Shown here: in pieces, positions 39,923 to 43,254 of the stretch
How positions within the stretch are numbered: position 1 is the stretch's first letter
Layout of the letters: the number at the start of each line of letters is the position of its first letter
Assembly: GCA_947500825.1 (NCBI GenBank)
Contig: CANMTR010000001.1
Coordinates: 186,001 to 250,000, forward strand
DNA from: an uncultured Paracoccaceae bacterium
GTDB lineage: Bacteria > Pseudomonadota > Alphaproteobacteria > Rhodobacterales > Rhodobacteraceae
DNA: 64,000 nt
Reading direction: 5' to 3'
Translations under genes and position numbers: made by a program
The notes under the pieces: model-generated
Told to the model about the DNA's origin: nothing
Database searches by the model: none
Seen by the model: the letters and a program-made list of their open reading frames with translations, nothing else

Positions 39923-40630
39923 TCACGCGACCGGGCCGTCCGGATCTGGGATGTTGCGGCCCTTCGCGACGGCGTCGCGGTCATTGAAGCGCGCCAGGTA
40001 GGCCACCGCGTTGGTATGGTCGTCCCATCCGACCATGTCCTTCGCGCCGTAGAACTCCAGCGCGTTGAGCCACGGCGCAATGGCGATGTCGGCGATGGAG
40101 TAGTCCCCCGCCACCCAGTCCCGCCCCTCGAGCTGGCGGTCGAGCACGCCCAGGAGGCGGGCGGATTCGCCGATATAACGCTCGCGCGGATAGGGATCTT
40201 TCACATCCTTGCCGCCGAGTTTCACGAAATGGCCCATCTGGCCGAACATCGGCCCGAGCCCGGCGACCTGCCAGGCAAGCCAGGTCTGCACCTCCCACCG
40301 CTTGCGACCCTCGCCGCCGAGCTGGCCCGTCTTTTCGGCCAGGTAGGTGAGGATCACGTGGCTCTCCCACAGGCCGATGGCCTGCCCGTCCGGCCCGTCG
40401 GGGTCGATCATGGCCGGGATCTTATTGTTGGGGTTGAGGGAGAGGAACTCGTCGCTCTTCACGTAGTCGTCGCCCAGGGGGACGAGGTGCGGCTCGTAGG
40501 GGAGGTGCATCTCCTCCAGCGCGATGGAGGCCTTCACGCCGTTGGGCGTGGGATAGGAATAGAGCTGGATCACGTGGGGGTTGTCGGCGGGCCATTTGCG
40601 GGTGATGGCGAAGTCGGCGAGATCGGGCAT
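39923..40630 (-). CDS. Glutathione S-transferase (YghU/YfcG Nu-class type)
   Basis: A 235-residue GST. The N-terminal thioredoxin-like domain (about 18-100) has IQLYSYPTPNGVKASIALEEM, LNPNNKIPAMIDPDG (cis-Pro) and ESHVILTYLAEK (Glu-Ser that bind the gamma-glutamyl group). The all-helical C-terminal domain carries DYSIADIAIAPW, the N-capping motif of the family. Nu-class members have disulfide-bond reductase activity. ATG 40630 has GGAG 6 bp upstream. It is divergent from the Ku-like gene. Confidence 0.9.
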   Translation of the reverse strand: MPDLADFAITRKWPADNPHVIQLYSYPTPNGVKASIALEEMHLPYEPHLVPLGDDYVKSDEFLSLNPNNKIPAMIDPDGPDGQAIGLWESHVILTYLAEKTGQLGGEGRKRWEVQTWLAWQVAGLGPMFGQMGHFVKLGGKDVKDPYPRERYIGESARLLGVLDRQLEGRDWVAGDYSIADIAIAPWLNALEFYGAKDMVGWDDHTNAVAYLARFNDRDAVAKGRNIPDPDGPVA

Positions 40631-40745
40631 GAGGGGCTCCGTTTGGCGGTGTCGGAACGGACCTAGGCTCCCTGCGAGGGCCGTCACCCCGCGCTGGGCG
40701 CGCAAGGCCCGTGCGCTAGAGTCCCGGGCTGAAGGAGGATGCGCC

Positions 40746-41135
40746 ATGGCCCCATGCGCCGTCTGGAGCGGGCAGCTTCGCCTGCCGCTCGTCACCACCC
40801 CGGTGGAGATCCATGCGGCGACCACCTCCGGCTCGCGGCTGCGCGACGCCAAGACCGTGGAGGGCATGGGCCCGGTGGAGCGCGAGGATATCGTCAAGGG
40901 ATACGAGACCGGCGACGGCGACGACGTCCCTATCGACTCCGACGAGCGGAAGGACCTGGAGTTGAAGACCTCGCGTCGGCTGGAGATCGTGCAGGTGGTG
41001 GAGCAGGGCGAGATCGCGCCGCTCCGCTGCGACCGTCCCCGTTACGCGGTGCCCGGCGACGAGCCGGCCGAGGACGCCTATCGCGTCGTCCGCGACGGCC
41101 CGTCCCGCGGCCTGGGCGGGAGGAAGGCGTCGTGA
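40746..41135 (+). pseudogene. Truncated Ku-like protein (NHEJ end-binding, likely non-functional)
   Basis: A 129-residue ORF. The start (MAPCAVWSGQLRLPLVTTPVEIHAAT) and the block REDIVKGYETGD...LELKTSRRLEIVQVVEQGEIAPLRCDRPRYAVPGDE...AEDAYRVVRDG match bacterial Ku. Two parts are missing: the segment between about residues 30 and 40 that normally holds FNQINKKTG-type strands, and everything after ~residue 120, which forms the rest of the DNA-encircling barrel. Normal Ku is about 260-300 residues. The frame is intact and AAGGAGG precedes the ATG, so it may still be translated. It is coupled to the next gene by a GTGA overlap. Confidence 0.8.
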
Positions 41136-42040
41136 CGGCTGACCGGTTGGAGAACGACACCGCGCCCCGCGGCTCCGCCCGCACCGACGAGCCGCAGGGG
41201 AAAGGGCGCGAGGGGCGCGCCGGCGGAGCGCTGTGGTTCTCCGTCCAGAAGCACGACGCCTCGTCGGTGCATTACGACCTGCGGCTCGAATGGGACGGTG
41301 TGCTCCTGTCCTGGACCATCCCGAAAGGGCCGGCCCCGGTCACCGGCGAACGGCGGCTGGCGCGGCGCACCGAAGACCACCCGCTCGACTACGGCGATTT
41401 CGAGGGGACGATCCCCGAGGGCGCCTGTGGCGGCGGGACGGTCATGTTGTGGGGCCGGGGCACGTGGGCCCCGCGCGGCGACGTGGCCGACATGGTGGCC
41501 GACATGCTGGCCGACGGAAACCCGAAGATGGACGTGGATGGCGCGCGGATGCGGGGCGGCTGGGCCCTGATCCGGTTCGCCAAGGGCGGCGAGGGGGCCT
41601 GGCTCCTGATCAAGGAGCGGGACGGGGAGGCGGGCGACGATCCCGACGCGCTGACCGGGACGTTCGGCACCTCCGTCGCGAGCGGGCGCAGCATGGAGGA
41701 GATCGCGCGCACCCAGCGCGTCAAGCGGCCAAAGTTCCGCGCGCCGCAGCTCGCCACGCTGGCGGACGAGGCCCCGGAGGGGGAGGGCTGGAGCGACAGG
41801 ACGAAGCTCGACGGCTACCGCGCGCTCGCCGCCATTGGGACGGATGGCCCCACCATGTGGACGTGGCGCGGGCACGTGTTTGCCGCCGCGTGCCGGGCGG
41901 GGGCGCCGGTGGCCGGTCCGGTGACCCGGGACGAGCTGGAAAGCCTCGCGGGCGAGGGCGCCTTCGACATCGGCGCGATCGCCGAGCGGATCACCGAGGA
42001 CGTGCCGGGCGCGCTGGAGCGGGGGCGCGCCGATGGCTGA
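41132..42040 (+). CDS. Shrunken LigD: complete 3'-phosphoesterase domain with remnants of ligase and polymerase domains
   Basis: A 302-residue ORF; normal PE-Lig-Pol LigD is about 800-850. The phosphoesterase domain (about 33-165) keeps all catalytic residues I can map: His41, His47, Asp49, Arg51, His83 and Tyr87 (SVQKHDASSVHYDLRLE; EDHPLDYGDFEG). At 199-235 a ligase-domain start appears (PQLATLADE...TKLDGYRALA, Lys225 at the nucleophile position). Around 245-255 it switches to what looks like the polymerase-domain tail (AGAPVAGPVTRDELES). About 550 residues are absent without a frameshift. GTG 41132 has GGAGGAAGG upstream. The stop overlaps ybgC by 8 bp. Confidence 0.85.
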   Translation: MTADRLENDTAPRGSARTDEPQGKGREGRAGGALWFSVQKHDASSVHYDLRLEWDGVLLSWTIPKGPAPVTGERRLARRTEDHPLDYGDFEGTIPEGACGGGTVMLWGRGTWAPRGDVADMVADMLADGNPKMDVDGARMRGGWALIRFAKGGEGAWLLIKERDGEAGDDPDALTGTFGTSVASGRSMEEIARTQRVKRPKFRAPQLATLADEAPEGEGWSDRTKLDGYRALAAIGTDGPTMWTWRGHVFAAACRAGAPVAGPVTRDELESLAGEGAFDIGAIAERITEDVPGALERGRADG

Positions 42041-42422
42041 TCCGCACCTCTTTCCCGTCACGGTGTACTACGAGGACACCGACATGGGCGGGATCGTCTA
42101 CCACGCGAACTACCTGAAGTTCATCGAGCGCGCCCGGTCGGACATGGTGCGGCGCCTCGGGATCGACCAGAACGCCATGCGGGCGGCGGGCGGCGTCTTC
42201 GTCGTCCGGCGGATCGACGCGGAGTTCGTCGCCCCCGCGCGGCTCGACGACGTGCTGGAGGTGCGCACGGAGATCGCCGCGGCCACGGGCGCGCGGCTGT
42301 CGCTGGCGCAGTCGGTGCATCTCGGCGCGACGGAGCTGTTCCGCGCCCGGGTGGAGATCGTGGCGGCCGATCCCGTGCGCGGGCGACCGCGCCGCCTGCC
42401 GCCGGAGCTGCGCGGGGCCTGA
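42033..42422 (+). CDS. ybgC: Tol-Pal-associated acyl-CoA thioesterase YbgC
   Basis: A 129-residue hot-dog-fold thioesterase. The catalytic motif VYYEDTDMGGIVYHANYLKFIERARSD is complete, with Asp17 in the active-site position. It hydrolyses acyl-CoA or acyl-ACP thioesters and is co-encoded with tolQRAB in many proteobacteria. The ATG lies within the last codons of the LigD-like ORF (8-bp overlap), so it is probably co-transcribed with it. tolQ follows after 136 bp. Confidence 0.93.
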   Translation: MADPHLFPVTVYYEDTDMGGIVYHANYLKFIERARSDMVRRLGIDQNAMRAAGGVFVVRRIDAEFVAPARLDDVLEVRTEIAAATGARLSLAQSVHLGATELFRARVEIVAADPVRGRPRRLPPELRGA

Positions 42423-42443
42423 TCGGGCGGGAATCGCTCTACC

Positions 42444-42494
42444 TTTGCGCGAATTCGCTTCACCGCTTTGTGCGAGAGGAGTGGCTTTTGCGCG
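42444..42494 (+). promoter_or_regulatory. Three TTTGYGCG direct repeats upstream of tolQ
   Basis: TTTGCGCG (42444), TTTGTGCG (42467) and TTTGCGCG (42487) lie on the same face at 23- and 20-bp spacing, about two helical turns apart, ending 64 bp before the tolQ ATG. They look like a cooperative regulator-binding array. An OmpR-type factor such as CenR is a candidate; this is inference only. Confidence 0.4.
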
Positions 42495-42558
42495 CAGGCT
42501 GGGGTAGGTATCGGGAGAGAGGCCCGCAAAGAGGCCCGGCAGAGCGAAGAGCAGTCCG

Positions 42559-43254
42559 ATGGAAACCGAAACACTCGCGGCGGCGGGACAGATGGATTTC
42601 TCCATGCTGGCCCTGTTCGCGCGCGCCTCCCTCGTCGTCAAGCTGGTGATGCTGCTGCTGATCGCGGCCTCCGTCTGGTCCTGGGCGATCATCATCCGCA
42701 AGCACATGGCCTTCCGCGCCGCGCGGGCCGAGGCGGCGCGGTTCGACGCGGCGTTCTGGTCCGGCGAGCCGCTCGACGACCTCTATCGCCAGCTCGGGCC
42801 GGAGCCGGACGGGCGCGCCGCCCGGGTCTTCGTGGCCGGCATGACCGAGTGGCAGCGCAGCCACCGCGACGACGGGCGCCTGATCCCCGGCGCCCAGGCA
42901 CGCATCGACCGGTCCATGGACGTGGCCGTGGGGCGGGAGGCCGACGACATGGAACGCGGCCTGCCGATCCTGGCCACGATCGGGTCCACCGCCCCCTTCG
43001 TGGGCCTGTTCGGCACCGTCTGGGGCATCATGACCGCCTTCATCGACATCGCCGAGCAGCAGAGCACCAACCTCGCCGTGGTGGCGCCGGGCATCGCCGA
43101 GGCGCTCCTGGCGACGGGGCTGGGCCTTCTGGCGGCGATCCCGGCGGTGGTGTTCTACAACAAGCTGTCGGCCGACCAGGGACGGATCGTGGGGGGATAC
43201 GAGTCCTTCTCAGACGAGTTCTCCACCCTCCTGTCGCGCCAGCTGGATACCTGA
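42559..43254 (+). CDS. tolQ: TolQ proton-channel subunit of the Tol-Pal system
   Basis: A 231-residue inner-membrane protein with three transmembrane helices, homologous to ExbB/MotA. The long cytoplasmic loop follows helix 1 (VKLVMLLLIAASVWSWAIII). Helices 2 and 3 contain IGSTAPFVGLFGTVWGIMTAF and APGIAEALLATGLGLLAAIPAVVFYN. It forms the proton-driven motor with TolR that powers TolA during outer-membrane constriction. First of tolQ-tolR-tolA-tolB-pal-cpoB. tolR starts one base after its stop codon. Confidence 0.96.
   Translation: METETLAAAGQMDFSMLALFARASLVVKLVMLLLIAASVWSWAIIIRKHMAFRAARAEAARFDAAFWSGEPLDDLYRQLGPEPDGRAARVFVAGMTEWQRSHRDDGRLIPGAQARIDRSMDVAVGREADDMERGLPILATIGSTAPFVGLFGTVWGIMTAFIDIAEQQSTNLAVVAPGIAEALLATGLGLLAAIPAVVFYNKLSADQGRIVGGYESFSDEFSTLLSRQLDT

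Follow-up and report, generated by a model that had tools for sequence, protein, structure and literature searches.

Two short genes resembling ku and ligD lie directly in front of ybgC and pose the question of whether they are what deletion has left of an NHEJ operon or a reduced end-processing module in which a 3'-phosphoesterase (PE) is retained. They were found in a 64,000-nucleotide stretch of DNA from an uncultured Paracoccaceae bacterium, here called the window. The original prediction, made from the letters of the window, had left both readings standing and took the clean frame and the expression coupling to ybgC-tol as grounds for testing the second. We consider it probable that an NHEJ operon is in the middle of being lost at this place, and give roughly an even chance to the idea that operon coupling to ybgC-tol is the cause of the kept frames.

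The two genes are coupled as had been described, with intact frames and overlapping ends. AAGGAGGA precedes ku, as read from the sequence, and the features that follow are collected in Table 1. Against Pfam, the Ku stub (P0001) matches Ku (PF02735) with an E of 7.6e-11 over profile positions 25-125 of 190 only, with an internal gap of 13 codons; a complete Ku beta-barrel domain is not present. The LigD stub (P0002) contains a complete PE domain, matching LigD_N (PF13298) over positions 1-107 of 107 (E 6.1e-35). Of a primase-polymerase domain there is only a scrap, matched by LigD_Prim-Pol (PF21686) at positions 214-249 of 254 with E 0.13 and 12.3 bits against a cut-off of 27.4. Pfam retrieved no ligase domain in P0002, whose ligase-domain stub stops shortly past Lys225, the residue that we take to be the lysine of the ligase KxDG motif. 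Lys225 had been placed at the start of the ligase domain and is indeed present, though in changed surroundings (SDRTKLDGYR, vs VHETKFDGYR in the related genome G012). The names of the tol genes downstream of ybgC are our own assignment from sequence and order.

Table 1. Features of the ku-ligD locus and its surroundings (positions in the window; residue numbers are those of the LigD stub)
Feature	Positions	Strand	Remarks
Glutathione S-transferase-like gene	39923..40678	-	between small divergent gene and ku
Ku stub, 129 aa	40746..41135	+	N-terminal part of Ku beta-barrel domain
ku/ligD overlap	41132..41135	+	GTGA
LigD stub, 302 aa, GTG start	41132..42040	+	4-base overlap with ku, 8-base overlap with ybgC
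PE N-terminal segment (residues 3-33)	41138..41230	+	Arg13, Glu20 kept; Asp14->Gly, Phe15->Ser, Tyr9->Asp
PE core (residues 34-163)	41231..41620	+	has His41, His47, Asp49, Arg51, Glu81, His83, Tyr87; changes Tyr99Cys, Asp108Gly, Leu131Pro
Tandem copy of GTGGCCGACATG	41483..41506	+	12-base in-frame insertion in PE
Ligase-domain stub (residues 201-244)	41732..41863	+	presumed KxDG lysine present
Deletion junction(s)	41864..41893	+	net -1473 bases in the ligase-polymerase part, or -306 and -1167 if split by an FAAAC island
Polymerase C-terminus remnant (residues 255-302)	41894..42037	+	further 48-base deletion
ligD/ybgC overlap	42033..42040	+	8 bases
ybgC-like thioesterase gene	42033..42422	+	start inside ligD; tolQ, tolR next

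In another genome of the genus, G012, the same place holds a full-length Ku (292 aa) and a full-length LigD (809 aa), flanked by accA and a small divergent gene on the upstream side and by ybgC and tolQ on the downstream side; there, too, ku-ligD lies directly upstream of ybgC-tol and overlaps it. Because of these full-length genes, the alignment establishes both short genes as products of in-frame deletion, an origin that had been proposed from the window. Of two marks of a pseudogene, truncation relative to an intact relative in the same place is present, and a frameshift or internal stop is absent, both stub frames being open. Relative to G012, the Ku stub has lost 13 codons (-39 bases) internally and a net 150 codons (-450) of its C-terminal half, the two losses that had been predicted, and it retains its last residues (KAS) and the overlap with ligD. 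In LigD, a net 491 codons (-1473 bases) are gone from the ligase-polymerase part and 16 codons (-48) near the end; a large loss had been foreseen, although its figure of about 550 residues was somewhat high. The remaining LigD changes are +3, +12 (the tandem copy, missing from all nine other aligned sequences) and a net -18 in the linker, the length of which varies in intact relatives also. Every net indel length in the two stubs is a multiple of 3 in the alignment to G012, in which gaps are not reliably placed within the two large deletions: the aligned sequence there is broken up by islands of 7 to 14 bases, and two individual Ku gaps have lengths (220 and 80) that do not divide by 3.

An assembly error collapsing full-length genes is very improbable. 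Although the genome carrying the window (G000; 3.93 Mb) is split over 247 contigs, the stubs sit inside a contig of 493,896 bases, the differences consist of several separate net in-frame gaps with raised substitution in the remnants, and neither Ku, nor PE, nor polymerase is matched elsewhere in the assembly. A genome-wide search retrieved one Ku match and one PE match, those of the stubs, and no LigD polymerase match in any contig, so a second NHEJ copy elsewhere in the assembly was rejected. No polymerase or ligase partner genes were found among the genes flanking the PE stub. The genome has one other gene with an ATP-dependent ligase domain, on a different contig, and such a gene occurs in all 14 genus genomes. 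Bacterial Ku binds DNA ends as a homodimer and recruits LigD; with the C-terminal half seen in G012 Ku deleted, the Ku stub has probably lost dimerisation. Given the missing parts and the single copies, the remnant should be incapable of Ku-LigD end joining.

The ybgC stretches of all 13 other genus genomes were compared with that of the window (14 genomes including G000). In the 12 besides G012, tblastn with these genes found neither ku nor ligD in the ybgC stretch, leaving the ku-ligD-ybgC arrangement in 2 of 14 genomes; among the 13, G012 also has the ybgC closest to that of the window (78%). Across the 14, Ku is matched in nine genomes, PE in nine and LigD polymerase in eight, and five have neither a Ku nor a PE match. 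The arrangement is most likely due to a rearrangement in the lineage shared by G000 and G012. In five of the 12 others, ybgC is preceded, at a distance of no more than 11 bases, by a gene of 208 to 213 aa (loci L031, L033, L036, L037 and L040); four more have this gene 0.4 to 1.9 kb upstream, and three lack it among the listed ORFs. The first 60 residues of one of these genes gave no Pfam match at E 0.01. A sequence that we take to be RuvB-like was searched for in four genomes; its distance from the start of ybgC is 1.7 kb in G001, 14 kb in G007 and about 200 kb in G012, and G000 has it on a different contig. The glutathione S-transferase-like gene upstream of ku gave no tblastn match in the G012 stretch.

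Why the frames have stayed open can be addressed through the indel lengths. If lengths were random, the chance that all would be in frame is (1/3)^6, about 0.0014, for six events (-39, -450, -306, -1167, -48 and +12) and 0.004 for five, a rough argument that assumes independent, single events and involves no formal test. These figures speak against plain neutral decay, in which the in-frame indels would be due to chance, or to a sample of very recent loss, and ybgC-tol would have no role. The events number only five or six, however, and the absence of stops is weak evidence, because the DNA is GC-rich and the ligD frame is open across the ku region too. We regard neutral decay of this kind as unlikely. 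The clean frame, which the original prediction had named as a reason to test the second reading, is not specific evidence for PE function, since the frame is equally kept in the Ku stub and in the tail of LigD.

In the course of events that we propose, full-length, overlapping ku and ligD directly before ybgC-tol, as in G012, would have been the starting point. Several net in-frame deletions then stripped Ku of its C-terminal half and LigD of almost its whole ligase and polymerase domains, and the PE is the last part whose catalytic centre is intact, although its conserved sites are being substituted. The frames would most likely have been kept because ku, ligD and ybgC form an overlapping translation chain, in which a frameshift would cut ybgC-tol expression, leaving only net in-frame changes. 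The full-length copy in G012 and the lack of ku-ligD in the ybgC stretch of the 12 others, the single Ku and PE matches without any polymerase match, the indel lengths in multiples of 3, the relaxation of Ku and ligase stub, conserved-site changes in all parts, the unseen substitutions and low score of the PE (below) and the GTGA and 8-base overlaps all speak for decay held in frame in this way. Against it, GC3 of ku (0.92) and ligD (0.93) is similar to that of the neighbours and gives no sign of long decay. A scan of positions 40500-42600 found no promoter-like or terminator-like site, and thus no promoter-like site before ku, which counts against the coupling, as does the small number of events on which the frame argument draws; alphaproteobacterial promoters need not fit the consensus used. 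Since omega = 1 is rejected for the remnants too (below) and the PE core is raised in two pairs, decay and coupling as its cause, taken jointly, are held at middling confidence.

Whether the PE is still a working enzyme was approached through its conserved residues. An excerpt of the review PMC8656161 gives His42, His48, Asp50, Arg52, His84 and Tyr88 of Pseudomonas aeruginosa LigD as key PE residues. Their equivalents in P0002 (His41, His47, Asp49, Arg51, His83 and Tyr87) are all kept, as the original prediction had read them, and are identical in all 92 homologues that remained of 103 after dereplication at 95%. The same excerpt describes residues 14, 15, 21 and 82 as needed for 3'-phosphatase activity and dispensable for the removal of 3'-ribonucleosides, and part of PMC4797286 also ties the N-terminal extension to phosphate removal. 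Of this set (Arg14, residue 15, Glu21 and Glu82), P0002 keeps Arg13, Glu20 and Glu81, and the equivalent of residue 15 is Gly14; among the 92 homologues, this residue is Asp in 89, Asn in two and Arg in one. The excerpt of PMC8656161 prints residue 15 as Arg; counted from the alignment, the 2lj6 chain starts RDF at position 14, and position 14 of P0002 corresponds to Asp15 of P. aeruginosa LigD. If active, the stub PE would be expected to remove 3'-ribonucleosides and to be poor at removing phosphate.

Substitutions have also accumulated elsewhere in the domain. At columns at least 90% conserved, the PE of G000 shows 10 departures, the most among 93 sequences and tied with L063 and L066, and seven of these departures occur in none of the 92 homologues (Tyr9Asp, Asp14Gly, Phe15Ser, Leu46Val, Ala62Thr, Tyr99Cys and Asp108Gly). 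The PE of G012 has four departures at conserved columns and no unseen substitution; the separate PE genes L063, L066 and L065 have three, one and five unseen substitutions, respectively. Position 131 is Pro in G000, and Leu (79), Phe (9), Ala (3) or Met (1) in the homologues. Order-wide, PE was matched at 67 places in 64 of 390 genomes. Of these matches 66 are near-complete, and none of them scores below that of G000 (122.8 bits; the next is 130.7); the sole lower score belongs to a 71-codon fragment. The 12-base insertion may add to this low score. The loss of the Asp15 equivalent, Tyr99Cys and the other changes were absent from the original prediction. On sequence grounds, the PE appears as the last part with an intact catalytic centre, yet one gathering substitutions at conserved sites, and it may still be active or already failing.

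Codon models were fitted to the PE core (residues 34-163), Ku (1-117) and the ligase stub (201-244). In a ten-sequence fit, omega of the PE core on the G000 branch is 0.077 vs 0.087 in the background, and omega = 1 is rejected (p = 6.9e-7). A six-taxon fit of genus genomes, with a topology fixed by us and G004, G005 and G013 dropped, gives 0.081 (grid 95% 0.04-0.2) vs 0.052 for the PE core (p = 3.2e-5 vs 1, 0.36 vs background), 0.168 (0.08-0.4) vs 0.084 for Ku (p = 0.0012 and 0.15) and 0.212 (0.04-1.0) vs 0.015 for the ligase stub (p = 0.34 and 0.057). An earlier Ku fit, which included the distant G005 and G013 copies beside G012, had given 0.250 with p = 0.023 vs background, the values that became 0.168 and 0.15 in the six-taxon refit. 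With Ku and the ligase stub pooled, omega is 0.150 vs 0.058; no relaxation lies 3.47 lnL below the best fit and omega = 1 lies 8.92 below. In the same test, the PE core gives 0.072 vs 0.047, with no relaxation 0.55 and omega = 1 10.78 lnL below. Rejection of omega = 1 over the whole branch for Ku and ligase stub (8.9 lnL) indicates that any relaxation was recent or partial. Fits for small regions were unstable and were left out (linker omega 7.4; PE N-terminus branch length 12).

Pairwise dN/dS between G000 and G012 is 0.156 for the PE core, 0.444 for Ku and 0.541 for the ligase stub, vs 0.078-0.175, 0.250-0.324 and 0.076-0.164 in four intact pairs. Against G008 and G001, respectively, G000 gives 0.200 and 0.264 (PE core, somewhat raised over the four intact pairs), 0.521 and 0.594 (Ku) and 0.218 and 0.374 (ligase stub). 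The PE N-terminus and the linker show no clear excess over intact pairs when compared with G012, and the neighbours give 0.142 (accA), 0.218 (ybgC), 0.132 (tolQ) and 0.130 (tolR). Where five intact members of the genus all share one residue, G000 departs from it at 16 of 75 sites for Ku, 6 of 14 for the PE N-terminus, 10 of 101 for the PE core, 4 of 15 for the linker and 8 of 35 for the ligase stub. The proportion is lower in the PE core than in Ku and ligase stub together (24/110; Fisher p = 0.024). Judged in the same way against the other four, G012 has 5 of 106 in the PE core and 8 of 118 in Ku and ligase stub, so that G000 is raised about two-fold over G012 in the PE core and about three-fold in the remnants. 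PE and remnants can be fitted with a single relaxation fraction, about 0.055 of the branch, as neutral decay would have it, and the difference between them is not significant (p = 0.24). The Ku and ligase remnants thus look relaxed, the PE less clearly, and the data do not separate the PE from the rest. 

The rival reading is the reduced end-processing module, in which the PE would be selected as a Ku-independent remover of 3'-ribonucleosides that is a poor 3'-phosphatase, and the scraps would serve only to keep the PE translated. The six catalytic residues and Glu81, with roles described in excerpts of PMC8656161 and PMC4797286, argue for it, as do a PE core omega of 0.072-0.081 without significant relaxation and the lower proportion of conserved-site changes in the PE core; values of 0.07-0.08, near background, also stand against decay. 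The PE changes at the Asp15 equivalent, Tyr99, Asp108 and Leu131, the lowest score among near-complete matches, the two-fold rise over G012, the raised PE core dN/dS against G008 and G001, the shared relaxation fraction and the lack of a relative with this form in the searches below weigh on the other side. We rejected dN/dS as proof of PE function because the branch includes time before the deletions and one fraction fits all parts. A retained enzyme is accordingly a possible explanation but an unlikely one, and less likely than decay, its main support being a low omega, which may largely reflect time before the deletions. A more specific form of it, in which a LigD relic freed of Ku, ligase and polymerase would act as an independent 3'-ribonucleoside remover that has lost its phosphatase and is co-made with the Tol machinery as the first translated segment of the tol operon, we consider more doubtful still.

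A search for short forms in related genomes had been suggested, and none of this form was found. The same short form was not seen elsewhere among the genus genomes with PE (9 of 14), among the family genomes with a match (40 of 295, a short frame at a contig end in G171 being left out) or at the 67 PE places of the order. Four of the best 80 of 543 relatives have a frame below 600 aa around the PE (L076, L100, L116 and L118). Two of these (L116 and L118) run off an end, and L076 and L100 were rejected on inspection of their loci; L072, short in the match list, proved full length in sequence. Short PE ORFs of the family were set aside as well: eight of the 11 loci fetched have LIG and POL beside the PE, and of the other three, tblastn found POL only at L151, LIG pieces and Ku at L064 and neither at L148. 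Judging from these loci, a PE encoded as a gene of its own is ordinary in the family, a point in favour of a retained enzyme. Ku was not matched in any of the four separate-PE genomes searched (G361, G507, G384 and G156), so the split PE, LIG and POL set may work without Ku. Within these searches, there is no clear case besides G000 of a PE without any LigD-type partner.

The stubs can be set against known systems. In gene pair and place, as seen at the G012 locus, they resemble the fused PE-LIG-POL LigD with Ku of the P. aeruginosa type; the PE is 74% identical over the aligned stretch, and P0002 matches the P. aeruginosa PE structures 2lj6 (E 1.9e-40) and 3n9b (E 5.4e-40). They differ from this type by the deletion of both the ligase and the polymerase domain of LigD and of Ku's C-terminal half. 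P0002 also matches the separate archaeal PE of Methanocella paludicola, of the split-operon kind (5dmp, E 2.2e-34), both being PEs without fused ligase or polymerase. Separate PE genes are described as operonic with polymerase and ligase in part of PMC4797286, whereas the PE of G000 has no LIG or POL neighbours, arose by deletion and still carries scraps of the ligase and the polymerase. According to an excerpt of PMC7719229, Ku and LigD are frequently gained and lost in bacteria, with one-step loss of both inferred as the likeliest route. Compared with the losses in that excerpt, the present one would have been caught part-way, through net in-frame deletions. In the short listings of open-licence literature searched, no title dealt with such a LigD relic.

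The full-length copy at the same place makes a part-way path of NHEJ loss readable, by in-frame deletions and with the PE last. If the in-frame pattern is due to the tol genes, gene loss would be shaped by operon position, and decaying genes would look intact to annotation. Should the PE enzyme have been kept instead, LigD end processing would be useful apart from end joining.

Two further genomes carry divided or duplicated PE genes. In G361, contig 5 (L148, 2440-3045) holds an intact 201-aa PE near a below-cut-off polymerase trace, and contig 10 (67416-68874) holds a full polymerase match with a PE fragment, which looks like two copies that shed complementary parts. G060 has one PE match in a 910-aa frame and, at L064 on its 9.1-kb contig 56, a second copy of the PE (176 aa) with Ku and ligase pieces next to it.
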